DNA of 64,000 nucleotides from a virus: IMG/VR virus record IMGVR_UViG_3300032607_000379, positions 1 through 64,000 of that record. The stretch is one strand, 5' to 3'. A program made the position numbers and the translations under genes. Within the stretch, counting starts at the first letter, position 1. Every line of letters starts with the position of its first letter. This document shows, piece by piece, positions 2,162 to 52,665 of this stretch. The notes beneath the pieces are model-generated. The model had not been told where the DNA came from, ran no database searches, and saw only the letters and a list, made by a program, of their open reading frames with translations.

Positions 2162-3253
2162 TTAGCCTGCGGGTTTTGCCTTCTTTACAGGGCGTCGGTC
2201 ATAGACTGTCTGGATCATCTTGTCTGATGTGTGTCCAGTAGCGTTACGTACATCGGTGTCACCTCGTTCTAACTTGTCTGACACGCCCATAGGGCGACAG
2301 TCTTGCAGGCTGAAGCTGCGAAATGGTACTTTCTGTTTGGCTGCTTCTTCTTGGCAAGCAGCCATCAGGTCGAACAGTCCTGACTTCCATCCGCCCTTGG
2401 TGTAGCGGTTGCCTTGCATGTTTCCAAACAGGTAGTTGCCACTGGCCAGCTTGTTGCGCTTGAAAGCCAAGGCTTCGTCTACGGTTTCACGCAAGCCAGC
2501 ACTCCACTCAATGAGTACAGCTGGCTTAGTCTTGTTCTTGCCATCATGCCAGAGCATCCCGTCATCAAGCACTTGCTCTCTCAGGATGGCACGTACTTCA
2601 ACTGAACGCCTGACACACAGCCAAGCTGTGCGCAATCCCAAGGCCACGATGTATCGAGCACCCCCCATGGTCCGCCCTACTTCGGTAGCCAGCTTCATTT
2701 CATCTGCTGTTACCAAGTGGCGGATCTTGACGGTCTTGTTTTTGGTCATGTCAGTGAAGGGATTGATGGCAATCTTTCCTTTCTTGACGCCGTACTCCAA
2801 GATGAGCCGAGCCAGTGCTATCTCCTTGTTGCCCTTTTCAGGGCGCTTGGCCTGACAGGCTTCTAGGTACTCATAGCCCATGGTTTTGTCTATTTCGTTG
2901 ACTTCAAGATGGCCAAAAGCTTTGATCAAGTTCTTGGATTCGTTCTTGTTTTCATCAAGGGTGCTTTTCGCACGCCTTTCAGCTGAAGTCAGGGGCAAGC
3001 CTTCTTGCCAAGCAAACCAGGCGTTAATCAAGCCAGTGAAGCCACCCACAATGACTTCTGCGCCAATGCTGGCAGACTGGGCGATAGCCAGCTTACGGGT
3101 CTTGATGACCTGAGCTGCATCACTAGCTGGACATTCCAAACGAAACGCCCAGACACCTGATGGCAGCTTGTATCCAATGGAGTACACGCGTATGCCCTTC
3201 CGCTCATACAAGCGAGCAGGCAAGCCATCTGGTTTAAGGCGTCTGTTGGTCAT
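2162..3253 (-). CDS. int: Tyrosine recombinase (phage integrase)
   Basis: 363 aa. Site-specific recombinase that would join attP to the host tRNA-Asp gene. The N-terminal half is an arm/core-binding region. The catalytic domain carries the first Arg (R216 in RRSVE), a Lys in GKNKTKP (about 239-243), QDCR (317-320) where most family members have HxxR, GHT (H341), and the nucleophile Y351 in TVYDRR. The His-to-Gln change at the HxxR box is a recognised variant in integrases of this type; all other catalytic positions are present, so the enzyme is probably active. Its ATG overlaps the stop of the upstream DUF4224 gene (ATGA), so the pair is coupled. The gene runs toward attP, which begins directly after its stop. 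Confidence 0.93.
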   Translation of the reverse strand: MTNRRLKPDGLPARLYERKGIRVYSIGYKLPSGVWAFRLECPASDAAQVIKTRKLAIAQSASIGAEVIVGGFTGLINAWFAWQEGLPLTSAERRAKSTLDENKNESKNLIKAFGHLEVNEIDKTMGYEYLEACQAKRPEKGNKEIALARLILEYGVKKGKIAINPFTDMTKNKTVKIRHLVTADEMKLATEVGRTMGGARYIVALGLRTAWLCVRRSVEVRAILREQVLDDGMLWHDGKNKTKPAVLIEWSAGLRETVDEALAFKRNKLASGNYLFGNMQGNRYTKGGWKSGLFDLMAACQEEAAKQKVPFRSFSLQDCRPMGVSDKLERGDTDVRNATGHTSDKMIQTVYDRRPVKKAKPAG

Positions 3254-5608: not shown

Positions 5609-6241
5609 TTATTTTTTCTCTGGTTTAAGGTACTTTTCCTTGCCCTCTTTGCAGAGTTCAAGGATTGTTTGCTTGTCAGCGTTGTTATCAAGCGTGATGG
5701 CGTTAGACCAGTTGGGCCAGAAGATGTCTAAGGCAGATCCCAGCTTCACCGTGTCATGCTGGATCTCAGGTAGTTCCTGCCACTGCATTGACAGCACCAG
5801 TTCCCTGTTGGCCCACTCCACTATCTCGATGTTGTCTTTGACAACAAGATAGATAGCGTCATGGATCAGGGCTACTGGTTTGATGTCAAAGCGGTATTTG
5901 GAAGCCCAGACCTTGCGCATGAAGTCCACAGCTGCTCTGTTGTTAAGCAAGCCATAGGACTGACCCATGGCATTGCCTGCGGTTCGTCCTTCAGCTGCAG
6001 CTTCGTAAGGCATCTTGGCTGAGCCAAACATGACTTGCTTGAGCAGTGGGGTTCGGACACGCAAACCAAAAGCTACTTCGACGTAGCCGTCTTTGGCCGC
6101 TTGATGAAGCCGGTCTTGGATGTACTGGTCTGAGACTTGGTAAAGGTCGTGGTAGCCCTTTTCAATGGCTTGCGACTTCTCCATGTCCCAGCCAAGGTTG
6201 CTCATCATCCCGTGGTACGTGCCGCCGTAAGTAAGAAGGAA
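5609..6241 (-). CDS. DNA polymerase family A, C-terminal fragment (fingers end and palm)
   Basis: In-frame homology to PolA-type polymerases begins at TTC 6241 (FLLTYGGTYHGMMSNLGW). The first ATG is at 6208, giving a 199-aa ORF. Counting from that ATG it contains the palm motif C, IHDAIY (H116, D117), and AFGLRVRTPL. The O-helix tyrosine-glycine (YG in LTYGG) lies upstream of the ATG, so an independent start at 6208 would lose the end of motif B. The preceding piece (6244-6372) is in another frame, separated by 5 nt containing TAG. This is the third of three pieces of one N4 gp39-type gene. Whether the pieces are rejoined at the RNA or translation level, act as a split enzyme, or reflect a mutation or assembly error cannot be told here. 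Confidence 0.85.
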   Translation of the reverse strand, partial: FLLTYGGTYHGMMSNLGWDMEKSQAIEKGYHDLYQVSDQYIQDRLHQAAKDGYVEVAFGLRVRTPLLKQVMFGSAKMPYEAAAEGRTAGNAMGQSYGLLNNRAAVDFMRKVWASKYRFDIKPVALIHDAIYLVVKDNIEIVEWANRELVLSMQWQELPEIQHDTVKLGSALDIFWPNWSNAITLDNNADKQTILELCKEGKEKYLKPEKK

Positions 6242-6372: not shown

Positions 6373-7052
6373 ACAAATCCGTAAGCTAGTTTTTGTCTTC
6401 CATTCAGCATATTGCTGATTGGGCCGGTTGTTTTTTTGCCGAGTGCATGGGATGCGGCATACAAACTTTCATAGGTAGCCACGATGTGCCCATCGGGACT
6501 TATTTGTTGGATTGGTTGTTTTTTGTTTGCGTTTGCTGCTGTGTTGCGTAGTGTTTTTTGCCTAATAAGCTCAGCAGTAAATGCTTGAACTCGGTCAGCT
6601 TTTACCGCAGCATTTCTAAGACTGATGGAAAGTGGGGATAAGGCGTACTCAAACTCTGCAGAAAGCGTTGTCATGTTGTCACCTAAAAGAAAGCGAGACA
6701 AACATTCTTGAAGTTGGTCGCTAGTCAACTTCTTTTTAGCACTCATAGTTCCTAGCTTGTAAGCATGGAGAAGGTTTTCACTTTGAGTTACCCACTCAAG
6801 GTTGTCCTTGTGTGGGTTGGCTCGATTGGCGTCAAGGTGGTTTACAACTGGCTTGCTTAACAAGTTTGGTACATAGGTCTGCGCTACAAGTCTATGCACC
6901 GTTTTTGGATACTGACGGTTGTTTTTCCATAAGGTGACGTACGGATACCCGTTTTCGTTCAGATGGGGAGTGAGGGTATTTCCTTTGGAGGAATTAACCA
7001 CACACCCATCTTCGTTTATCAGGTAGTTTTCAAAATCAGGAATGGGTATCAA
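6357..7052 (-). CDS. HNH homing endonuclease (NUMOD4-HNH-NUMOD1) inserted in the DNA polymerase gene
   Basis: 231 aa from a TTG at 7052 with GGAG 7 nt upstream. NUMOD4-like start (IPIPDFENYLINEDGCVVNS), HNH core with VHRLVAQTYVPN and VVNHLDANRANPHKDNLEWV, and a C-terminal NUMOD1-like DNA-binding repeat (about 180-231, ending GRQKLAYGFVWKY). Such enzymes nick or cut a target and spread into genes lacking the element. The ORF starts 16 nt inside the upstream polymerase fragment and ends inside the downstream one, leaving no non-coding space for a group I intron core. It therefore looks like a gene-splitting free-standing endonuclease rather than an intron or intein. Confidence 0.9.
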   Translation of the reverse strand: MIPIPDFENYLINEDGCVVNSSKGNTLTPHLNENGYPYVTLWKNNRQYPKTVHRLVAQTYVPNLLSKPVVNHLDANRANPHKDNLEWVTQSENLLHAYKLGTMSAKKKLTSDQLQECLSRFLLGDNMTTLSAEFEYALSPLSISLRNAAVKADRVQAFTAELIRQKTLRNTAANANKKQPIQQISPDGHIVATYESLYAASHALGKKTTGPISNMLNGRQKLAYGFVWKYT

Positions 7053-9087
7053 AGTAATGCTCCACAGGTATTTTCGATCCGTCTGGCATTATTATAAAGT
7101 CCCCACTTTTGCATAGCAAGGTATTGGTTCCAACTTTTAATTGAAAACACCGTTCGGTAGTTTCTGCCTGCCGAATGTCTTGAAGCTGATCTTTGAAATA
7201 AGAATAAGCACGCAAAGAGTGGCCGCAGTAGCCGTCTGTATACACTTTTAATTTATTTGTGTCCTTTGTAGTTAAAGCACTGATCATGTCCTCTAGACTA
7301 TTAAAGTCAGCCCCACAAAACAGCCATCCTTTTGGTGCTTCAAAGCATTCCTTGATCAGCTTGCCGTAAACAGAGCCAGCTGGGATGTTCTGCAGATTGG
7401 GATCGCTTGAACTCAATCGACCTGAGACAGTGCCGCCCAAATTAAACGAGCCATGTAGCCAGGCTGTACCGTCTTCTTTAAGCAGCGCTTTTTCAAACGC
7501 TGGAATAAAGGTAGACAGGATCTTGCTTACTTTGCCATGCCCAATTAATGCTGAGAGCAGTTCCTTGTGGGAAATGTCTTGTGCATGGTTGATCAGCTTT
7601 TCAAGCGTGTCAGCACCCGTAGAAGGCTGCCCAGTGTCTGTGGTGTCCAGTACTGGCAAGCCCATGTGGGTGTACAAAAGCTTTTGTAGCTGTTGACCTG
7701 AGTTTGGGTTAAACACTACGTTGTCAAACTTCTCCAGCAAGTGCTGTTTGACTTTGAGCTTGGCATTGGCAGCTGTTTGGGCGTCATTGCGTAGCGTTAA
7801 GTTGAGTTGCTGAGACAACACGCTGTTGGTGATCACTGCTAAGTGACTGGCTTGGATAGCTTCAAGTTCTGCTTTGACTTCTTGCACTTTGTCCTTGTTC
7901 AAAGGCATACCTGTCAGCTCCATTTGAATAATCAACTTGAGTGACGGCAGCATCAGATCGTTGTAGAGCGTCAACTGGTTTTCAGACTCCACAACGGGCA
8001 AGTGCTTAGCTTTAACAAAGTTAGTGCACATTGCGTCCACCAAGTTGTACTGGAGCAGTTCAGGCAAAGGAATCCTGCGGATGTCCTTGATGTCTTCCTT
8101 GGCCCAGTTGCCAGCAAACTCATGAGCCAGTGATTTCAGGCCCAGTACGTTGCCAGCAGTGCTGTTGGTAGCCAAGTACGCGATCACCTTGGTGTCGTGC
8201 ATGTTGGCTGTCATGCAGTCCAAGCCGCGCAGCATGTTAGGTGTGTCCAGTAAGTCATCCATCCACAGGGCGTAGATGATGGCTTTAACGTCATAGGTGG
8301 AATGATGAAAAGTCAGCTCACCTTTGTACTCCATGAAGAACTTCAGCAGCAGGTCACGAACTTGTTTGTTTGGACCAAACCATCCATAGAAGCCTTCTGC
8401 AGGACGTTCTGCATATTTCTTGTAGTCACAGGCAAAGGCAATGCCGTTGTGCTGATCCCAAGCAAAGGCAATAGTGCCAATGCCTGCTTCGTTAAACGAG
8501 AGCGAGAAGCCTTCGATGTCACAAGCAAGGCTTGGATACTGGTGCAGCGATTGAAGGGCTTCAGCGACGTTCTGGAGCGTCTCAGGGTAGCTTGCAGAGT
8601 GAATGATCCCGCTGCCAAGCGCTTTGTAGTCGCCAGCTATTTTGGAAGCCAAGGTATCTAGGCTCATGGTCAGGCGAGGCTGCAGATCCGGGTTGAATAT
8701 CAACTGTCGGTAGTTCAAAGTAAGCACTACATTGAAGTGCTCGTAGCCTTTGACCTTGCAGGGCATTGCATAGCCGTAGTGCGGCTCAGCTTTGGCTTGG
8801 CCAGCAAGTACCTTGAAGTACGCAGCATCAGCCACCAGAAGGTGTTTGACGCCTAGCGAATCCAAAGCTGGCAGGAGCTTTTGCAAATAGTCTTTGCAAT
8901 GCCCGGTAGGTGCTTTGTCCTGTTCGTTGTAGCTTAGGGTAAAAGCAATGACATCTTTGATGGGAACATTGCGCTCAGCCAAGGGGTTGACGTAGCTGTT
9001 AACAAGCTCTTGCTTGAAAAAGCTATTGCCCTTGATCAGCAGCGCAACAGGGTATGACTCAGATTCTTCAAAGATGTGGTGTCGCAT
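7036..9087 (-). CDS. DNA polymerase family A, N-terminal fragment (exonuclease and start of palm)
   Basis: 683 aa, corresponding to N4 gp39. The proofreading exonuclease is complete: D190-x-E192 (ACDIEG), D266 (HHSTYD) and Y347-x3-D351 (YNLVD). The polymerase domain starts with SGRLSSSDPNLQNIPA (about 556-570) and motif A D594 in GADFNSLED. The reading frame then passes DGYCGHSLRAYSYF and ends at residue 683 in THS, where the HNH ORF takes over. Motifs B and C are in the two downstream fragments. It lies between the hypothetical gene at 9092 and the HNH gene, in the replication operon. Confidence 0.92.
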   Translation of the reverse strand: MRHHIFEESESYPVALLIKGNSFFKQELVNSYVNPLAERNVPIKDVIAFTLSYNEQDKAPTGHCKDYLQKLLPALDSLGVKHLLVADAAYFKVLAGQAKAEPHYGYAMPCKVKGYEHFNVVLTLNYRQLIFNPDLQPRLTMSLDTLASKIAGDYKALGSGIIHSASYPETLQNVAEALQSLHQYPSLACDIEGFSLSFNEAGIGTIAFAWDQHNGIAFACDYKKYAERPAEGFYGWFGPNKQVRDLLLKFFMEYKGELTFHHSTYDVKAIIYALWMDDLLDTPNMLRGLDCMTANMHDTKVIAYLATNSTAGNVLGLKSLAHEFAGNWAKEDIKDIRRIPLPELLQYNLVDAMCTNFVKAKHLPVVESENQLTLYNDLMLPSLKLIIQMELTGMPLNKDKVQEVKAELEAIQASHLAVITNSVLSQQLNLTLRNDAQTAANAKLKVKQHLLEKFDNVVFNPNSGQQLQKLLYTHMGLPVLDTTDTGQPSTGADTLEKLINHAQDISHKELLSALIGHGKVSKILSTFIPAFEKALLKEDGTAWLHGSFNLGGTVSGRLSSSDPNLQNIPAGSVYGKLIKECFEAPKGWLFCGADFNSLEDMISALTTKDTNKLKVYTDGYCGHSLRAYSYFKDQLQDIRQAETTERCFQLKVGTNTLLCKSGDFIIMPDGSKIPVEHYFDTHS

Positions 9088-15202: not shown

Positions 15203-16441
15203 TCAGCTCAAAGCGTAATTGCTTCCACGTATGTGGTCTGCCAGGTCATAGGTCATCTTGGGGAAGACGCCTGGCCTGCCATGTACTTGGCTGAGCAAGT
15301 CATCAAGCACCATGGATTTAGCAATCTCGGCCATCAGTTCCCGGTACTGCCAGCGCACAGTATTGAGATTATTCGGATGAGCTTTGAACTCATCGTGAAT
15401 AGTCACTAATGCAAATGGCTTGTAGGTCAGCAGGGTCGCAGCCATGCTTTTGAGCGAGTCCAGATGGGCATCACTCAAGTACTTGACGTTGGTTTCGCCC
15501 AAGTACGGAAGGATGACAACACTTGTCAGAGTGCTGCGCTCGTACTGCTGCATGTAGTACGCTACTTTGCCTGTAGGACTTGGTTCCTGCTGGCTTTCTC
15601 CTTGGATACGCGCTTCTTTTTCCTTGCTGATAGCTCTGAAAGCCTGATCAACCATTTCTGCGTCGTAGTTACAACGGCGGTGCATTTCCCGCACCACGTA
15701 AGCATCCATGGAATGCACTACGTTAGCTGCGTTGGACAGACCATGACGTGCACCAAGGTTTTCATAGAACTCATAGGTGAAGGTGGCATGGTCGAGTTCA
15801 TCGACTTCAATGCGTACTTCTCGTTTGTTCATGACCTTGACCTTGGCATCGAAGCCATCAGGCAGTTTCCACTGGTGGATTAAGCCCCATGGCTTCCAGC
15901 TGCCAAGCAAATCTTGGAGCAACTCCCATGCACCGGGTGCAACTTGGTTAGCAGCCTGATAGAAGGCATCCAGTTCAGGCGTGTCTTCCCCGAAGATCTG
16001 CTTGGGCATGGCTTTGGAGCCATAGAAGCTGGTCATCAATGACTGCTTGGCATCTGCTCTGCTGATGTTGACGCTGCTGCCCAGAATAGTGCCCATCACT
16101 TGCGTGGTGTAGGTGTAGGCATCTGAGCGCTCGTTGGGGTTGACTAAGCCTGTAGCTGTAGCGCCTTTGACGCAGCCTGTAAGCACTGACATCAACTGAA
16201 TGCCAGAACAGCAAGCATCCAAGCCCACCATGTGGCCGCTTGGGATGCCTGCCTGTGCTTTGCGTATAGCTTGCATGGCTTTCATGTACAAGGGCTTAGT
16301 CTCAGCCTGGTCAGCCAGATCTTCCAGCTCATTGAGGTTGGCTTCTGCCCACTCAATACGCTTTTCAAATACAAGTTTGTCGTGACCAAATTGATTGGCC
16401 AAGTCGATTAGCAGGTACTGCCATCCGGTGAATGTTTTCAT
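15203..16441 (-). CDS. Phage RNA polymerase, large subunit (N4 RNAPII, motifs A-C)
   Basis: 412 aa. It carries the catalytic half of a T7-like single-subunit RNA polymerase: motif A D75 in GLDACCSGIQLMS, motif B K132 to Y140-G141 (AKQSLMTSFYGSKAM), and motif C H349-D350 (TIHDEFKAHPN). The DxxGR box is absent and is found in the gene just upstream. This is the two-gene arrangement of N4 RNA polymerase II (gp15 and gp16), which transcribes middle genes. Start ATG with AAAGGAA 7 nt upstream; 15 bp separate it from its partner. Confidence 0.95.
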   Translation of the reverse strand: MKTFTGWQYLLIDLANQFGHDKLVFEKRIEWAEANLNELEDLADQAETKPLYMKAMQAIRKAQAGIPSGHMVGLDACCSGIQLMSVLTGCVKGATATGLVNPNERSDAYTYTTQVMGTILGSSVNISRADAKQSLMTSFYGSKAMPKQIFGEDTPELDAFYQAANQVAPGAWELLQDLLGSWKPWGLIHQWKLPDGFDAKVKVMNKREVRIEVDELDHATFTYEFYENLGARHGLSNAANVVHSMDAYVVREMHRRCNYDAEMVDQAFRAISKEKEARIQGESQQEPSPTGKVAYYMQQYERSTLTSVVILPYLGETNVKYLSDAHLDSLKSMAATLLTYKPFALVTIHDEFKAHPNNLNTVRWQYRELMAEIAKSMVLDDLLSQVHGRPGVFPKMTYDLADHIRGSNYALS

Positions 16442-16456
16442 GGTTGTTCCTTTGGT

Positions 16457-17368
16457 TTAAGTTGTTGGCACACCTTCAATGATTTCAGCGTCAGCTAGTT
16501 CTAGCATTGCTTTCTTGAAGGCAGATCCTTGGGTATTGATGTGGTATCCGTGCGAGTAAATGCGCCCTCGCTTGTCTACTTTATGCGTCAGGTAGAACCT
16601 GTTGCCTTGCGTAGCCATGAGGTGATAGAAGTGGTAGCTTTGCTTCTTAAAATGCGCCCAGCTTTCTTCTTTGTCCTGAGTATCAAGATCAAAGGTAGGT
16701 TCTTCTTCCACAGTACTGAGAAAATCGGTGTCCAGCTGTAAGACAACCTTGTTCATGATGTTCAAGGTGTCCAGACAGATGTCTCCGTCATGGTGATTAC
16801 CTGATCCGAGGATTAAGGAATCGTTGTGCGTTAGGTAGCCGCTGGAGTAATTGTGGGTTAACTCCAAAGGCTCGCACACCATTGGCGGCAGGAACTGACT
16901 GTTGTCGATGAACTCTATCAGTGCATCTGGCAATGGAATGCGTGACTCCACCATCAAACTGGCCTGTGGGCCGTCTTTGCTGATGTCAAACGCATCTGTA
17001 TTGCACAATACAGCTAGTAGTTCTGCCACAGTAGTGATGGCTTCTGTTCTGTCACTGAGTTTTAACCTAGATGCCATTTGTGATGACACTGAAGTAAACA
17101 GTTCAGGACGCTGTGCGTAAGACACGCCTACAAACATGTCTATTACCAAGGCTGGTATGTCCATGTTCTGTAGTTGTGCTGCACGCTTCATCTTGGACTC
17201 GTAGTACGTTCCATTCATGTATGCAGTAATCAGGCGCACACCTTCGATGAGCTTGTCCTGCATGAAGCTGCTGGCTTCAATAGCATCTCTGATCTTTACG
17301 TCGATGTGCTTACGGTTGTAGCGTTCTTCGTTCATTTCCTGAACAACTATGTCGCGCATGGTTTCCAT
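16457..17368 (-). CDS. Phage RNA polymerase, small subunit (N4 RNAPII, DxxGR part)
   Basis: 303 aa from the ATG at 17368 (AAGGAG, 6-nt spacing); a longer TTG-started frame lacks a ribosome site. It is the N-terminal part of a T7-like polymerase, ending with the template/RNA-binding box D265-K-R-G268-R269 in HKVDKRGRIYSHGYHIN. Motifs A-C are in the adjacent gene. The two proteins should form a heterodimer equal to one T7-like enzyme. It follows the early genes and is preceded by a TTCC-loop hairpin at 17416-17430. Confidence 0.93.
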   Translation of the reverse strand: METMRDIVVQEMNEERYNRKHIDVKIRDAIEASSFMQDKLIEGVRLITAYMNGTYYESKMKRAAQLQNMDIPALVIDMFVGVSYAQRPELFTSVSSQMASRLKLSDRTEAITTVAELLAVLCNTDAFDISKDGPQASLMVESRIPLPDALIEFIDNSQFLPPMVCEPLELTHNYSSGYLTHNDSLILGSGNHHDGDICLDTLNIMNKVVLQLDTDFLSTVEEEPTFDLDTQDKEESWAHFKKQSYHFYHLMATQGNRFYLTHKVDKRGRIYSHGYHINTQGSAFKKAMLELADAEIIEGVPTT

Positions 17369-17415
17369 GTAATGCTCCTTTGGGTTTGAGTTTGTCGATG
17401 AAGGCAATCGCCCAA

Positions 17416-17742: not shown

Positions 17743-17777
17743 GCTGGCAATAGCGCCAGCCCAATGGCCGTAGGCCA
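17743..17777 (-). promoter_or_regulatory. Virion RNA polymerase-type hairpin promoter 1
   Basis: Minus strand TGGCC-TAC-GGCCA (17765-17777): 5-bp stem, 3-nt loop. With the loop centre (A, 17771) as -11, position -8 is G and the predicted start is 17760. A second inverted repeat GCTGGC/GCCAGC (17743-17760) begins exactly there. The purine at -11 and G at -8 match the known N4 virion polymerase rule. Drives the gene at 17726. Confidence 0.75.
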
Positions 17778-17811
17778 CGTTGGAGTTCTTCTGTGGTTCT
17801 TCTGTGAACAT

Positions 17812-17940
17812 AAAAAAAGCCCACCTCTTGTTGCGAAGGAGCAGGCCGGGAAAAGCAGGAGTCTGGAGCTACCTTACAGACAGGCTAAAGGTGACTGTCT
17901 CAACTGCGTTTCTGTCTGGCCTTAGGTAAGGCACATACTG
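17812..17940 (-). ncRNA. Structured non-coding stretch, candidate small RNA
   Basis: There is no ORF between two minus-strand T-runs. On the minus strand it holds GCCTTA-CC-TAAGGC, then CAGACAG paired with CTGTCTG about 28 nt on, then a GC-rich weak hairpin and seven T (17812-17818). It could be a small RNA released by readthrough, or a long leader. No tRNA features (no T-loop, no CCA). Confidence 0.3.
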
Positions 17941-17941
17941 T

Positions 17942-17998
17942 AAAAAAGCTAACTGCTCCCCATCCCAAAAGGGATGAGAAGCGGTGGAGCATTTAGCT
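17942..17998 (-). terminator. Large compound terminator
   Basis: Minus strand AGCTAA/TTAGCT and TGCTCC/GGAGCA stacked, enclosing CATCCC/GGGATG, then six T. It overlaps the last codons of the gene ending at 17993. Confidence 0.9.
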
Positions 17999-18271
17999 CA
18001 GATCGAAGCCTGCGGTATCAGATGCCTGAGCAGACTGAAACTCAATAACCAACTTCGACATGATCGCGGCAACCCGCGTCGGGTCTTCGTTCAGCCAGTC
18101 CAGCATCTGCTTTTCGCTGGGCTTCGACTCTTTCAGCGGGATAGCACCCAGCTTACGACGCTTGCCCCCATCCTTCGATGGAAGGTACAAATTCAAGAAG
18201 CCCTGCGCTTTCCACGAATCGTTGCTGGCGCTGTTGTTGTTCGACTGAACGGCATTGGATTTAAAAGACAT
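17993..18271 (-). CDS. Conserved small early protein
   Basis: 92 aa (MSFKSNAVQSNNNSASNDSW, then AQGFLNLYLPSKDGGKRRKL). An Asn/Ser-rich disordered start leads into a compact beta-strand/basic core (GFLNLYLPSKDGGKRRKLG) and an acidic end (GFDLS). Similar proteins occur near the early genes of other phages of beta-proteobacteria (recalled). Function unknown. It is flanked by hairpin promoter 2 and a strong terminator, so it is its own transcription unit. Confidence 0.75.
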   Translation of the reverse strand: MSFKSNAVQSNNNSASNDSWKAQGFLNLYLPSKDGGKRRKLGAIPLKESKPSEKQMLDWLNEDPTRVAAIMSKLVIEFQSAQASDTAGFDLS

Positions 18272-18308
18272 GAGATAGCTCCAGAAAAAGGATTAAAAAA
18301 GAAACGCA

Positions 18309-18341
18309 TTGCGTCAAAGCGCAAGAAATGGCCGTAGGCCA
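18309..18341 (-). promoter_or_regulatory. Virion RNA polymerase-type hairpin promoter 2
   Basis: Minus strand TGGCC-TAC-GGCCA at 18329-18341. The loop centre at 18335 as -11 gives G at -8 and a start at 18324, exactly where the second inverted repeat TTGCG/CGCAA (18309-18324) begins. Drives the gene at 18271. Confidence 0.75.
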
Positions 18342-18453
18342 CAGCGGCGTCAACTTTAGAAGCAGAGCTTGAAAAAGGTGACTATTCTAGTAAGAATTTA
18401 ATAAGGAAAGACTAACCCTGAATAATTCAAAACTTGTCACGGGTTTGTCATAC

Positions 18454-18531
18454 TTAGCCCCTCCAAGCAAGCATGGCGCCAATGCTGGCGAACAAGGTAA
18501 TAGTTACCACTGTGCAAACAAAATCATTCAT
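18454..18531 (-). CDS. 25-aa membrane mini-protein
   Basis: MNDFVCTVVTITLFASIGAM plus LAWRG. One hydrophobic helix with a short polar start. GGAG stands 8 nt before the ATG, and a terminator precedes it. Very short, so support is the ribosome site and the sharp hydrophobic segment. Possibly an early membrane-active peptide; function unknown. About 110 bp of AT-rich sequence follow with no gene. Confidence 0.45.
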   Translation of the reverse strand: MNDFVCTVVTITLFASIGAMLAWRG

Positions 18532-18552
18532 TTAAAGCTCCGCTATGCAATG

Positions 18553-18575
18553 AAAAAGGACTCATCAGAGTCCTT
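18553..18575 (-). terminator. Rho-independent terminator
   Basis: Minus strand AAGGACTC, loop TGAT, GAGTCCTT, then T residues. It follows the 37-aa early gene. Confidence 0.85.
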
Positions 18576-18598
18576 GTTGGTTTGAAAGCAGCAGACTG

Positions 18599-18712
18599 TT
18601 AACCGCGCCACTCGTCCAAGTAGGTGGACTCCAGCGCATCGTCAAGGGCAGCAAACAGATCGAGGTCGAGCAAGTCGGATTCGGCAGCAATAGGCAGGTC
18701 TTGATAAGACAT
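18599..18712 (-). CDS. Acidic 37-aa early protein
   Basis: MSYQDLPIAAESDLLDLDLF then AALDDALESTYLDEWRG. GGAG is 7 nt before the ATG; a longer in-frame start would lie inside the promoter hairpin. Strongly acidic with a Leu/Asp-rich amphipathic helix, as in small host-takeover proteins that bind host enzymes, but nothing more can be said. It has its own promoter (18774-18786) and terminator. Confidence 0.65.
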   Translation of the reverse strand: MSYQDLPIAAESDLLDLDLFAALDDALESTYLDEWRG

Positions 18713-18745
18713 AACTTCTCCAGAAGTATTGAAAACAATGGGCGA

Positions 18746-18786
18746 TGCAGACAACCTGCACCACTCCAGCAAATGGCCGTAGGCCA
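18746..18786 (-). promoter_or_regulatory. Virion RNA polymerase-type hairpin promoter 3
   Basis: Minus strand TGGCC-TAC-GGCCA at 18774-18786. The predicted start is 18769. The second inverted repeat (TGCAG/CTGCA, 18746-18760) begins 10 nt further on, later than at the other copies. Drives the 37-aa gene at 18712. Confidence 0.7.
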
Positions 18787-18829
18787 AAGAAACAAGTAAC
18801 CGCAGTTAAGCAGCTACTAGTAGACAGAG

Positions 18830-19048
18830 TCAGTACCGACGGGCGTGCTTACGCTCTTGGTAGATGATGAACAGCACTTGGCTTACAGCGATAAGTGCAA
18901 AGACACTGGCTGCTACTAATGCAAGCTGTGCAATAGGGCCAGTTGTCATGAGCAGGTAGCAGAGCAGTTCAATGCTGGCTACTGCCAGCAAGAACACTGC
19001 AAACGATGCTTCTGTATAGATGTAGAAGATGCGTGAAAGATTGGCCAT
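18830..19048 (-). CDS. Small integral membrane protein, early
   Basis: 72 aa from the ATG at 19048 (AAGGAATAGTCATG). Two or three predicted membrane helices fill most of the chain: about 14-33 (FAVFLLAVASIELLCYLLMT), then IAQLALVAASVFALIAVSQV, with a basic cytoplasmic end QERKHARRY. It is an early inner-membrane protein, conceivably involved in superinfection exclusion or membrane changes; unproven. Promoter hairpin 4 lies just upstream. Confidence 0.7.
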   Translation of the reverse strand: MANLSRIFYIYTEASFAVFLLAVASIELLCYLLMTTGPIAQLALVAASVFALIAVSQVLFIIYQERKHARRY

Positions 19049-19066
19049 GACTATTCCTTGATTGAT

Positions 19067-19099
19067 GAGCAAGATTGCTCCAATGAATAGCCGTAGGCT
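19067..19099 (-). promoter_or_regulatory. Virion RNA polymerase-type hairpin promoter 4
   Basis: Minus strand AGCC-TAC-GGCT (19089-19099), a 4-bp stem version. The loop centre is 19094, -8 is G, and the predicted start is 19083. The second repeat GAGCAA/TTGCTC (19067-19080) starts 4 nt on. Drives the membrane protein gene at 19048. Confidence 0.65.
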
Positions 19100-19103
19100 T
19101 CTG

Positions 19104-19133
19104 AAAAAAACATACCAACCCGTTAGGGTTGGT
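19104..19133 (-). terminator. Rho-independent terminator
   Basis: Minus strand ACCAACCC, loop TAAC, GGGTTGGT, then ATG and seven T. It ends the transcript of the 52-aa gene immediately before promoter hairpin 4. Confidence 0.9.
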
Positions 19134-19139
19134 TGTTAG

Positions 19140-19298
19140 TTAGAAGATCAAGTCTTCCGCTCGGTTGACTGCCCGTCCCTTGTAGTCTGTTGATACAACT
19201 ACATCGAACTCGCCATCTTGTGCATTGCACATAGCTTCGTACTCAAGCCAGTCGGCTTCAGTAGGCTCATAAGCCAAGGCTTCTTTAGCAATACGCAT
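19140..19298 (-). CDS. 52-aa early protein
   Basis: MRIAKEALAYEPTEADWLEY and onward, ending AVNRAEDLIF. AGGAG stands 7 nt before the ATG. Acidic and soluble, not recognised. It is set precisely between promoter hairpin 5 and the terminator at 19104-19133, which supports it as a real single-gene unit. Confidence 0.7.
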   Translation of the reverse strand: MRIAKEALAYEPTEADWLEYEAMCNAQDGEFDVVVSTDYKGRAVNRAEDLIF

Positions 19299-19317
19299 GA
19301 CTAACTCCTATTAACAC

Positions 19318-19349
19318 GGCAATATTGCCAAGAGATAGCCGTAGGCTGT
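19318..19349 (-). promoter_or_regulatory. Virion RNA polymerase-type hairpin promoter 5
   Basis: Minus strand AGCC-TAC-GGCT (19337-19347), extended by a G-T wobble and an A-T pair. The centre is 19342, -8 is G, and the predicted start is 19331. A 12-bp palindrome GGCAATATTGCC (19318-19329) follows. Drives the 52-aa gene. The roughly 165 bp upstream (19350-19515) hold no gene, only short inverted repeats. Confidence 0.7.
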
Positions 19350-19515
19350 ATCGGCTGTGTATCGGAATGGGGAATGGGATGAGAATGATGAGGAATGGTG
19401 GGCTTAATCAATAGATTGATACCCATCTGTATCCTGTCTGTACAAAGTTGACGGACTTACTGTCCTTACTCTGTCTGTTGGATAGACTATCTCTATCCCC
19501 TTGTGTTGTGTAGGA

Positions 19516-19551
19516 CTTAATAGCCACCCCGAAGGGTGGCGTGGTATTAAG
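19516..19551 (-). terminator. Terminator-like hairpin after the first early gene
   Basis: GCCACCC, loop of four (TTCG on the minus strand), GGGTGGC, flanked by a second pairing segment CTTAATA/TATTAAG. A stable stem but no T-run, so it may be a processing or 3'-end protection hairpin instead. Confidence 0.45.
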
Positions 19552-19741
19552 GCTGTTGATTGAGCAGAGCTTGCATCTCGCGCTCTTGGAGCAGGAGCTT
19601 TTTCTGACGGTCATTGCGTGCTTCGTCTACGAACGTAGCAGCGGTTTCTTCTGACCACTTGCTGATATGGCCGAATGCCACACAGAAGTTGGTGATACCT
19701 TCGAGCAAGGTAGTGATCATGATATTAAATGCACGGAACAT
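19547..19741 (-). CDS. First early gene product, small conserved protein
   Basis: 64 aa (MFRAFNIMITTLLEGITNFC then a charged helix ending ALLNQQP). AGGAG is 7 nt before the ATG. A hydrophobic N-terminal helix and an acidic/basic C-terminal coil are visible; the pattern W-x-E-E-T-A-x-x-F-x-D-E-A-R-x-D-R is seen in small leading-region proteins of other phages (recalled). Function unknown. It is the first gene after the divergent region and has promoter hairpin 6. Confidence 0.75.
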   Translation of the reverse strand: MFRAFNIMITTLLEGITNFCVAFGHISKWSEETAATFVDEARNDRQKKLLLQEREMQALLNQQP

Positions 19742-19769
19742 AGCTAACTCCTATAGGATTAATGAACTG

Positions 19770-19801
19770 GGGTACGTACCCACTGGATGGCCGTAGGCCA
19801 T
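19770..19801 (-). promoter_or_regulatory. Virion RNA polymerase-type hairpin promoter 6
   Basis: Minus strand TGGCC-TAC-GGCCA at 19788-19800, with a sixth A-T pair. The centre is 19794, -8 is G, and the predicted start is 19783. A perfect palindrome GGGTACGTACCC (19770-19781) follows. It is the first promoter of the early region. Confidence 0.75.
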
Positions 19802-19990
19802 GTGTAGGGGGGGGGTGTCCGTGTTTAAGGGCTCCGCCCTTATAAGTCCTGCATCCGTACCCATTTTGTAAATTCCCAGAAAACCTGCGGTCCTAAAATT
19901 CTGCAGAATAATTCCACAGAACTTTTGGTATTCATTGGTTTTTAATAATGCCGTACCATATGCACCCGATACAGTAACTACTGGGGATAT
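19802..19990. other. Divergent intergenic region, probable site of genome ends
   Basis: No gene. It holds a run of nine G (19807-19815), a 7-bp stem/3-nt loop hairpin TAAGGGC/GCCCTTA (19826-19842), and AT-rich sequence before the terminase-side gene that may hold the late promoter. In N4 the early genes start at one end of the linear genome and gp69 at the other, so the two ends join here. The virion termini are probably within or near this stretch (inference). Confidence 0.45.
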
Positions 19991-20686
19991 ATGACGGTAT
20001 TAACCATTGAGCAATTCAAACAAGCTTTACCGGACAAGGTGAAGAAGTCCGTGAACCAAGAGCTGATTGACTCGGTCAATAACACTCTGGCTGACCCGGA
20101 GATGTTTGAGGCGTACCGGGATAACCTGCTGAGCTACACCCGTGTGATGGCCGATGGTCGGTTCAAGGTAAACAGTTATGTGGATGCTGTGCGCTATGTA
20201 AGCCACAAGCTCATGGGCTGCAGCAACATCGAGGCATACACCAAGGCATTCCCCGATAAGTACGCACGGTTCGTGGCTCAGGGTGTCCAAGCCAAGGACA
20301 TCGCCAGCTACGTCACTGCGTACAACAAGAGCAAGCTGGTCAACCTGATCTTTGAGCAGACGCTGATTCCCAGCTATGTACTGAACCAGGATCTGTATCA
20401 GCGGGCGCTCAATGTGCAGGCGGAACTTATGGTTCATGCCAAGAGCGAGAAGGTCAGGTCTGATGCGGCCAACTCCCTGCTTACTCAGCTCAAGATGCCT
20501 GAGACGCAGAAGGTAGAGCTGGAGATAGGTATTAAGGAAGACTCGTCCATTGCCCAGCTCAGGATGGCCACGATGGAGTTGGCAAGGCAGCAGCGCTTGT
20601 CCATGGAGTCTGGGTCTATGAATGCCCAGCAGGTTGCCCACTCCCGCATTCAAGTTGTGGATGTCAAAGCCAAGGAGATAGTGTGA
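19991..20686 (+). CDS. N4 gp69-like protein, probable small terminase subunit
   Basis: 231 aa, soluble and helical, with TIEQFKQALPDKVKKSVNQE at the start and a Gln/Ala-rich C-terminal helix. It is the first gene of the late block, before lysis and large terminase genes, as gp69 is in N4-like phages. A role in recognising DNA for packaging is inferred from position and from the basic helical make-up; no catalytic motif is expected. Confidence 0.7.
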   Translation: MTVLTIEQFKQALPDKVKKSVNQELIDSVNNTLADPEMFEAYRDNLLSYTRVMADGRFKVNSYVDAVRYVSHKLMGCSNIEAYTKAFPDKYARFVAQGVQAKDIASYVTAYNKSKLVNLIFEQTLIPSYVLNQDLYQRALNVQAELMVHAKSEKVRSDAANSLLTQLKMPETQKVELEIGIKEDSSIAQLRMATMELARQQRLSMESGSMNAQQVAHSRIQVVDVKAKEIV

Positions 20687-50526: not shown

Positions 50527-52665
50527 TTACCGTTTAGCCAGTGCTTTCATGACAGTCACCATGACAGTGCCCATGATTTCTTGCTCTTCAAGCTTGTCCG
50601 CAATCTTGTCGTTCAGGCCCATGACGCGAGAGCGGATGCCCTCAAAGTCAAAGCCTGCGTCCAGCAAAATCATGGCGTAACGCAGCAGCATGTTGTTGCG
50701 GTTGCCGTCACCAATGTTGTTGATGACCCACCGCTCTAAGTTGTCCATGGACTGCTGGGAGTCAATGAGGGCTTTGCGCTCTTCGTTCTTGCTGGTCTTC
50801 GGGATGAAGGGCAAGGCGTCGAGCAGCTCACCTTCGTTGTACTCAAAGTGGCCATTGTTAGAAAGCCACTTGCGTGCACGCTGATTGGTAGCTTTGTCCA
50901 CTTCAAACGGAAGCCAGTCATAAATGTGGGCCATGAACTCTTTGTAGTCCTTGGCTTCCATCTTCAGTTCGTAGTTCAAAGGCAGGATGATGCGAAAGCG
51001 ATGCCCATCGTCTGTGTGGCGCTTGGTCGTGTACAGCAGGAACTTGTAGTTCTTGAGCAGCAGCTTGGCTGTGGATATGTTCACTCCCCCGTCCACATCA
51101 ATGACAGCCAGGTTAAAGCCAGGGATGGCGTTTTCCTCGTTGCGGTAGCCACCCATCAAATGATGCGCCACCCAGTGCAGGCCAGAAGCCTGTGTGAGTT
51201 TGTGCAGCATGTCGAAAGGAGCTACTTCATTGCGGTAGTCGGTAGTGATGTCACTGGAGTAAGCAATGACCATCTTGTTGATATCAGTCTCCTTCAGTGT
51301 CTCGCCCCGCAAGAACTCAATACCATCAGAAAAAGCTTTCTTGATGATGATGTTGTTCTTGTAGCCATAAGCGGTAGCCAAGGTCAGCAGTTCGTTCTTG
51401 TATGCAGTACCGCCCTTGTAAAAGGGAAGTTCTTCTGCAAGATCGGCCTGCGTTACGTCAGCGCCTACGGCTGCGATGTACTTAGCCAGCTTTACCCATG
51501 GCTTGTCACGGGCTAGCATCAAGCTGAATGCTTCGCCAGAGTCCTCAGCAAGTTTGATGGCGTTGTACACATGTCCATCAGTTACTGCGGTTGAGTCATC
51601 AATGAAGGCATACGCACCTGCAAGCTTGAGTACCTTGAAGTAGCGTTCAGAAAGCTCACGCTTCTGAATTTCCTGATGGTCAGGCAGCTGGTCTGCACGT
51701 TGTTCGCAGTTGAGCTGGTACGCATTGAGCAAGATGCACGTTTCCTTGCTAATGATGAGCTTCTTGTTGGCATTGATGATGTCAGCCAAGTTCTCCATGC
51801 GGTCAGCCAGTGCTTCAATTGCGGTAGCATTGGCTTGGCTGGTACGGTCTTGGTACATCTGCTCTGGCGTGCGCTCCGAGCGGCTGGCTTTCTTGACGTA
51901 GCCAAAGAAGCAGCGCCGTGCGTAGCCTGTGCCAAGCATGTCCATCAGCTCTTCTTCGACTTTGGCCCCGTCAAAGATCTTCTGTGGAACGCCAAACATC
52001 AACAAGTTGGCTGGCGTCTTGCCTACAATTTCCTCACTGCGAGCGTTGTCGTTGGTGCTTTTGATCAGTTTGGATTTGATCAAGCCCTTGTCATACAGCT
52101 CGATGAAAGCAACAAATGCTTCCTGATTGGGGATCAGGTTGTTGCCAACTTCGTCCATGATCAGGTTCAAACCACCACAGTTTGCTAACAACAAGTGATG
52201 GCGGAACTGCTCAATGGCTGGAGCTGTAGCGGAATCAAAGGAAAAGCGTGGAGCGCCTAGACGATCTGCTTCCTTCTTCAAGCGTGCCAGTTCATCATCT
52301 GGGTCAGTGCCCTTGCGGGTTGCTCGTTTGACAGCCAGCTTGGGCAAGTTGTCCTCAAGCAGAAGAGGGAAAGTCTCCTGCTCATAGCGGTGACGGAATT
52401 GCCCAAGGATCAGCTCTTCCAGCAAGTTCATGGATTGCGTTTTGCCGTAGCCAGAGGGAGCTAGGTTTAACGCATACATGTTTACTGGAATCTCCCCTTT
52501 GTCAGGGGTGTCAATGTTGCAGCGCATCTGCGCTGCAACTAAGCAGAAGTAGTAGCCCACCAGAATGCGGAAGAACAAGGAATCGTCACGCTGGGTGTGA
52601 TCGCGCAAGATGCTCACCACACGTTCGCTGGTTGCGTGGTAGTCCATTTGATTGAAAGGTTTCAT
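50527..52665 (-). CDS. Primase-ATPase fusion (N4 gp43-type; DUF3987-like ATPase and AEP primase)
   Basis: 712 aa. The N-terminal ATPase has Walker A LAPSGYGKTQS (about 68-78) and Walker B LIMDEVGNN (about 165-173), as in DUF3987/YfjI-type helicases. From about residue 510 it has archaeo-eukaryotic primase motifs: the acidic pair in LAVIDVDGGV, a His in TTKRHTDDGHRFRIILPLNY. A PriCT-like end follows (GDGNRNNMLLRYAMILLDAG). It would unwind DNA and make primers for the family A polymerase. Large, one-gene replication protein, co-transcribed with the nuclease gene upstream. Confidence 0.87.
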   Translation of the reverse strand: MKPFNQMDYHATSERVVSILRDHTQRDDSLFFRILVGYYFCLVAAQMRCNIDTPDKGEIPVNMYALNLAPSGYGKTQSMNLLEELILGQFRHRYEQETFPLLLEDNLPKLAVKRATRKGTDPDDELARLKKEADRLGAPRFSFDSATAPAIEQFRHHLLLANCGGLNLIMDEVGNNLIPNQEAFVAFIELYDKGLIKSKLIKSTNDNARSEEIVGKTPANLLMFGVPQKIFDGAKVEEELMDMLGTGYARRCFFGYVKKASRSERTPEQMYQDRTSQANATAIEALADRMENLADIINANKKLIISKETCILLNAYQLNCEQRADQLPDHQEIQKRELSERYFKVLKLAGAYAFIDDSTAVTDGHVYNAIKLAEDSGEAFSLMLARDKPWVKLAKYIAAVGADVTQADLAEELPFYKGGTAYKNELLTLATAYGYKNNIIIKKAFSDGIEFLRGETLKETDINKMVIAYSSDITTDYRNEVAPFDMLHKLTQASGLHWVAHHLMGGYRNEENAIPGFNLAVIDVDGGVNISTAKLLLKNYKFLLYTTKRHTDDGHRFRIILPLNYELKMEAKDYKEFMAHIYDWLPFEVDKATNQRARKWLSNNGHFEYNEGELLDALPFIPKTSKNEERKALIDSQQSMDNLERWVINNIGDGNRNNMLLRYAMILLDAGFDFEGIRSRVMGLNDKIADKLEEQEIMGTVMVTVMKALAKR

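Follow-up and report, generated by a model that had tools for sequence, protein, structure and literature searches.

Predicted hairpin promoters of the early genes in an N4-like phage and a probable stem-loop at the start of their transcripts

The DNA analysed here, called the window, is a stretch of 64 kb (64,000 nucleotides, nt) from the 69,382-base IMG/VR virus record IMGVR_UViG_3300032607_000379. It possesses six DNA hairpins on the minus strand, named P1 to P6 (Table 1), one ahead of each of six early transcription units. We are highly confident that these hairpins are the early promoters of an N4-like phage and are read by its own virion RNA polymerase (vRNAP); the binding and the exact start we infer. 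Judged by its genes, the virus is an N4-like phage (Schitoviridae), as it encodes the RNAP1 and RNAP2 subunits, a vRNAP of 3623 amino acids (aa), and phage terminase, portal and primase genes. A preliminary description, made from the letters of this DNA, had proposed vRNAP-type promoters, one per early unit, which obey the rule of coliphage N4. The promoters were retained and the rule was not.

Six hairpins and their template letters

The motif GCCTACGGC was found on the minus strand at 17767, 18331, 18776, 19090, 19338 and 19790, all within 17767-19798. A seventh copy at 51463 (plus strand) lies inside the primase open reading frame (ORF), so the earlier count of six minus-strand hairpins with no further intergenic copy in the window holds. 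The remainder of the record outside the window showed no additional copy of the motif. Chance expectation is 0.37 copies in the whole window, and seven copies were reached in none of 100 dinucleotide shuffles. The stems from P1 (19788) to P6 (17765) have 6, 4, 4, 5, 5 and 5 base pairs (bp); measured by the N4 type, which has a stem of 5-7 bp and a 3-nt loop upstream of early genes, two stems are one pair short. A ribosome site and an ATG follow each hairpin, with a leader of 33-57 nt from the N4-numbered +1, and terminator-like hairpins were found by a scan after five of the six units, along with a TTCG-loop hairpin after the P1 gene. The early region is thus composed of six short units, the last one being the P6 gene with RNAP1 and RNAP2.

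The promoter function is further supported by the presumed reader and by the relatives of the phage. The polymerase domain of the window vRNAP matches the solved N4 vRNAP (2po4) by family profile with an E of 1e-49; the profile was required, as phmmer with the single domain gave no match against PDB. A scan for coding-strand C-TNC-G hairpins of at least 4 bp upstream of RNAP1 gives exactly P1, P2 and P3 when run on N4. In four close relatives (G001, G002, G003 and G014) the hairpins precede orthologous genes, and the P3 stem, TAGCC/GGCTA in three of them, is TGACC/GGTCA in G003, which represents two paired changes. A search of related genomes for the same hairpin and for compensatory stem changes had been proposed earlier; both were seen, the stem changes by inspection. 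The 13-letter hairpin TGGCCTACGGCCA is found identically before gp12 of phage PEV2 (at 3276), and PEV2 gp13, the orthologue of the P5 gene, has CAGGC-TAC-GCCTG, another stem with the same loop. In the PEV2 record both gp12 and gp13 carry the remark 'transcribed strongly in early infection', and the notes on adjacent genes name RNA-Seq. For LIT1 and LUZ7, a 2010 paper had predicted hairpins ahead of genes 1, 12 and 13 (Ceyssens et al., PMC3715699). The 21-letter form of the motif, TGGCCTACGGCCATNNNNTGG, occurs in 13 contigs among 2.9 million viral contigs: 4 relatives known beforehand, 4 with content matching Litunavirus records (YH30, YH6, PEV2 and LIT1) and 5 others, which carry N4-like early or neighbouring genes. 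All 13 are N4-like.

The promoter letters of N4 sit on the template strand, with a 5'-GRA-3' loop, a closing C:G pair and G at -8 (PMC4496689), as in the template oligonucleotide GTTGC-GAA-GCAAC (PMC12633501). Because the minus strand carries the early genes of the window, the plus strand serves as their template; it reads TGGCC-GTA-GGCCA, with T at -11 and C at -8. The 'A at the centre and G at -8' reported previously were taken from the coding strand. The template loop is GTA closed by C:G in all six, and it therefore has the loop 5' G and 3' A which determine extrusion; the C(GNA)G mini-hairpin is the part needed for extrusion in N4 (PMC4496689). The purine at -11 is replaced by T and the G at -8 by C in 6/6 copies. 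Template C at +1 is also not general, as the RNA base there is G in P1 and P6 only and T or C in the others. The six hairpins should not be called N4-rule promoters. Placing the start 11 nt from the loop centre gives 19783, 19331, 19083, 18769, 18324 and 17760, the same positions that the preliminary description had arrived at by this arithmetic. As exact starts they are doubtful, since five of the six copies have a conserved GG 2-3 nt beyond them; P5 lacks it.

Some observations weigh against the vRNAP promoters. The stems of P2 and P3 have only 4 bp, and the closing pair of the P1 hairpin is broken in G001, an exception to the conservation. The template letters at -11 and -8 do not match the bases which N4 vRNAP reads, so the window vRNAP must read its hairpins somewhat differently. 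Its contact residues are not firmly placeable either: among those of N4 only K437/R440 align firmly, while K114, R119, W129 and R904 were not placed reliably.

The palindrome TGGCCNNNGGCCA could instead serve as the operator to which a phage repressor or activator binds, with a possible link to lysogeny, as near-identical copies stand ahead of several genes and the window has an integrase-like gene (2162-3253). This explanation was rejected as very improbable. The nearly complete relative G001 possesses the hairpins and no detectable integrase, and PEV2, described as lytic, carries the identical hairpin. Moreover, the stems vary with pairing kept around a fixed C-TNC-G core, which fits a hairpin over a double-strand site, and the distance from hairpin to GG is constant within clades. 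Still more remote is the idea that the host polymerase transcribes the early genes and the hairpins serve some other role. The preliminary description had named starts explained by host-type -10/-35 boxes as a finding that would speak against its promoters. Two or three weak promoter-like matches exist in the region; however, the 3 matches compare with 6.3 in shuffles, none is regularly placed before the units, and the phage encodes a vRNAP. The sigma-70 explanation was rejected on these grounds.

The family survey and known systems

The scan was applied to 21 named Schitoviridae and 13 IMG/VR relatives besides the window's own record. After filtering and removal of near-duplicates 74 promoters were left; the filter demanded GG within five bases, and the window P5 (TTGCG) is thus outside the 74. 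At template -8, G was found in 9/9 promoters of the N4 clade and 0/13 of Humphriesvirinae, and C in 16/16 of the window clade. The letter at template -11 also differs by group, with T in the window clade (16/16), G in a second IMG/VR clade (15/15), A in Humphriesvirinae (13/13) and C in Zuri. The first GG is situated at the +1 of N4 in all 22 promoters of the N4 clade and Humphriesvirinae; among the other promoters, with G015 left out, 46 of 50 have it at +3. The conserved GG probably starts the RNA. R904, which reads the -8 G in N4, is invariant in the N4 clade, and co-variation of polymerase and promoter is plausible from these comparisons. N4 has only three early promoters, as stated earlier; six is not exceptional, being the high end of the per-genome counts which passed the scan (4-6 in relatives).

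Few or no convincing C-TNC-G promoters were found in Horatius, P184, XC38, Philippe, RG-2014, Ea9-2, RPP1, phi50-12, G004 and G009. P184 and Ea9-2 seem to use other loops. ACA triloops were observed in W07 (P184) at early offsets -6247 and -1676, and 4-nt loops in W19 (Ea9-2) at -6348 and -5908, in both cases with similar leaders and an inverted repeat after. In the contig L182:3951-7269, TAC, TTC and TCC loops are present together in early hairpins, so a genome need not keep to a single loop centre.

Among known systems, the window promoters are closest to the LIT1/PEV2 type; the kind of promoter is already known and these members are new. Apart from the hairpin shared letter for letter with PEV2 gp12, the window resembles LIT1, PEV2 and LUZ7 (PMC3715699) in the TAC coding loop, stems of 4-5 bp, the spacing with GG at +3, the orthologous genes behind P1 and P5 (homologues of gp01 and gp13) and an encoded N4-type vRNAP. 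It differs from PEV2 and LUZ7, which mix TTC and TAC loops in about four hairpins before longer operons, whereas all six loops of the window are TAC and its units are short and separate. With P1-P3 of coliphage N4 it shares a template hairpin with a C(GNA)G triloop, placed upstream of early genes and RNAP1, a homologous vRNAP as reader and, in N4 P1 and P2, an inverted repeat at the RNA start. In contrast, the three promoters of N4 have a purine at -11 and G at -8, and their GG is at +1 (template C); the six of the window have T and C at these places and a GG mostly at +3. The predicted P1-P4 of Klebsiella phage KP8 (PMC6950046) also consist of hairpin, short spacer and GG in more than three copies, but they have letters of the N4 type (C-TCC-G coding loop, G at -8) with GG at N4's +1.

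The inverted repeat at the RNA start

A second inverted repeat, noted previously for five of the copies, follows each hairpin. In P5 and P6 its first base is exactly the predicted +1; in P1-P3 it starts at +2 to +4, and in P4 still further downstream. The further proposal that the early mRNAs begin with a 5' hairpin gained support from folding over the 74 promoters. When a stem from exactly the first G was demanded, 25 were observed against 10.4 expected, and after this modest excess a folding-energy test with flanking controls was adopted. The 22 nt from the N4-numbered +1 gave a mean folding z of -1.10 +/- 0.15 against dinucleotide shuffles, while control windows at -60, -42, +10, +22 and +34 ranged from -0.21 to +0.07. 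With the prefix through GG held fixed, z was -1.11 +/- 0.15. The excess was present in the window clade, the group of N4, Humphriesvirinae and a Migulavirinae-like set, and was not found in seven Vibrio-phage promoters. The 5' arm is centred on GG, which is 80-85% paired. N4 P1 (GGACA-TGT-TGTCC) and Zuri (GGGCA-TGT-TGCCC) are examples.

Paired changes were also observed in the leaders, by inspection only, as the MAFFT leader alignment was too poor for formal pair counting. The P5 leader stem is TTGCG/CGCAA in the window and TTGGG/CCCAA in relatives, and the P4 inner stem GCAG/CTGC is CAAG/CTTG and AAAG/CTTT in relatives. The gp13 leader has GGCT/AGCC in PEV2 and GGCC/GGCC in YH6 and LIT1. Taken together, the sequences point to a probable family-wide 5' stem-loop in the early units of Schitoviridae. 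No earlier report of 5' stem-loops in N4 early RNAs was found; the founding papers (Haynes 1985, Glucksmann 1992) were beyond the search.

A smaller but appreciable chance is given to the repeat acting at the DNA level, within the promoter or in its extrusion, in place of an RNA stem-loop. In P5, P6 and some relatives the repeat takes in bases upstream of GG, which would be outside the RNA if GG is +1. Against this, the repeat arm begins at +1 in N4 P1 and P2, where starts are mapped, and only the first 22 nt show the excess folding, although neither counterpoint is conclusive.

Transcription of the N4 type by vRNAP depends on gyrase and SSB and resists rifampicin. If the promoters work by analogy with N4, gyrase-driven negative supercoiling would extrude the hairpin and single-stranded DNA-binding protein (SSB) would melt the coding-strand hairpin. 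The template (plus) strand would form the C(GTA)G mini-hairpin, to which the injected vRNAP would bind, and a minus-strand RNA would start a few bases downstream. Each unit would then run from the hairpin through a 4-6 nt spacer to the start and its 5' stem-loop, followed by the ribosome site, the gene and a terminator-like hairpin, with P6 driving the operon of both middle-gene polymerase subunits. T at -11 and C at -8 are the letters of the window clade rather than of N4. The vRNAP lacks part of the RNA-exit domain of T7 RNAP, RNA:DNA hybrids form on single-stranded templates, and SSB displaces the transcript (PMC4496689). A 5' stem-loop may help the nascent RNA to peel off the template and may protect the triphosphate end from decay. 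We tentatively propose, with somewhat less than even confidence, that a 5'-terminal stem-loop from the first transcribed GG is integral to the vRNAP early units of Schitoviridae, that it frees the nascent RNA from the template for reuse and shields the 5' end, and that at least two promoter classes arose as the -11/-8 letters and the spacing to the start diverged along with the polymerase.

Early units, genome layout and meaning

The features of the early region are collected in Table 1. The P2 unit (19140-19348: hairpin, leader, 52-aa gene and terminator) has no counterpart in any compared genome, and it may be a case of the early region gaining whole units. The P5 gene (17993-18271) has a match to phrog_6271, a host-takeover family with the label 'toxin'.

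Table 1. Coordinates of the promoters, stem-loops and genes in the window
Feature	Position	Strand	Remarks
P1 hairpin TGGCC-TAC-GGCCA	19788-19800	-	6 bp with flanks; before PEV2 gp01 homologue
P1 5' stem-loop TGGGTACGTACCCCA	19768-19782	-	
P1 gene, 64 aa	19547-19741	-	then hairpin GCCACCC-TTCG-GGGTGGC at 19523-19540
P2 hairpin AGCC-TAC-GGCT	19337-19347	-	4 bp
P2 5' stem-loop GGCAATATTGCC	19318-19329	-	
P2 gene, 52 aa	19140-19298	-	terminator-like hairpin 19133-19114
P3 hairpin AGCC-TAC-GGCT	19089-19099	-	4 bp
P3 5' stem-loop GAGCAATCTTGCTC	19067-19080	-	
P3 gene, 72 aa	18830-19048	-	terminator-like hairpin 18818-18795
P4 hairpin TGGCC-TAC-GGCCA	18774-18786	-	5 bp
P4 leader stem-loop GTGGTGCAGGTTGTCTGCATCGC	18742-18764	-	
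P4 gene, 37 aa	18599-18712	-	terminator-like hairpin 18575-18556
P5 hairpin TGGCC-TAC-GGCCA	18329-18341	-	5 bp
P5 5' stem-loop TTGCGCTTTGACGCAA	18309-18324	-	
P5 gene, 92 aa, PEV2 gp13 orthologue	17993-18271	-	terminator-like hairpin 17982-17955
P6 hairpin TGGCC-TAC-GGCCA	17765-17777	-	5 bp
P6 5' stem-loop GCTGGCGCTATTGCCAGC	17743-17760	-	
P6 gene, 92 aa	17448-17726	-	heads operon with RNAP1 and RNAP2
RNAP1 (16457-17407) and RNAP2 (15203-16441), middle-gene polymerase subunits	15203-17407	-	strong terminator-like hairpin 15156-15127
vRNAP, 3623 aa	35925-46796	+	presumed hairpin reader

Late genes run rightward from 19991 and early genes leftward from 19741. The natural left end would accordingly be expected at about 19.8 kb, and the record appears to be circularly permuted. 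A C-run on the minus strand at about 19801-19815, just upstream of P1, is kept in the window, G001, G002, G003 and G014 and is perhaps near the genome end. Another intergenic triloop hairpin, conserved but of a different motif, is centred at 19834 upstream of P1. It has a TCC loop on the plus strand and reads AAGGGC-GGA-GCCCTT on the minus strand; in G001, G002, G003 and G014 its stem letters change in pairs. Because the minus strand carries the C(GNA)G loop, a promoter here would face right to the late gene at 19991; it has no GG start.

The named relatives are distant, as the vRNAP domain is about 30% identical to those of PEV2 and LUZ7; closer relatives in IMG/VR are G001 (76%) and G004 (43%). 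The integrase-like gene (2162-3253, minus strand) is of tyrosine-recombinase type and matches phrog_1 at 5.5e-18, with no Pfam match. A relative with 72% identity was found in G003 and none in G001. Integrases in N4-like metagenome viruses were previously reported (PMC10654107). Matches to DNA polymerase A are divided between two ORFs on the minus strand (7036-9087 and 5609-6208), and the gene looks split.

To our knowledge, vRNAP is among the few enzymes known to use a DNA hairpin as promoter, and nearly all of its rules were derived from coliphage N4. The -8 and -11 rules of N4 do not extend to the family as a whole. Much of the family has the C(GNA)G mini-hairpin in common, though P184- or Ea9-2-like phages seemingly do not share it. 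The survey yields natural promoter-polymerase pairs for specificity studies. The 5' stem-loop would be a simple and apparently overlooked part of the early unit, and it bears on how transcripts may be released by a polymerase without an RNA-exit domain.

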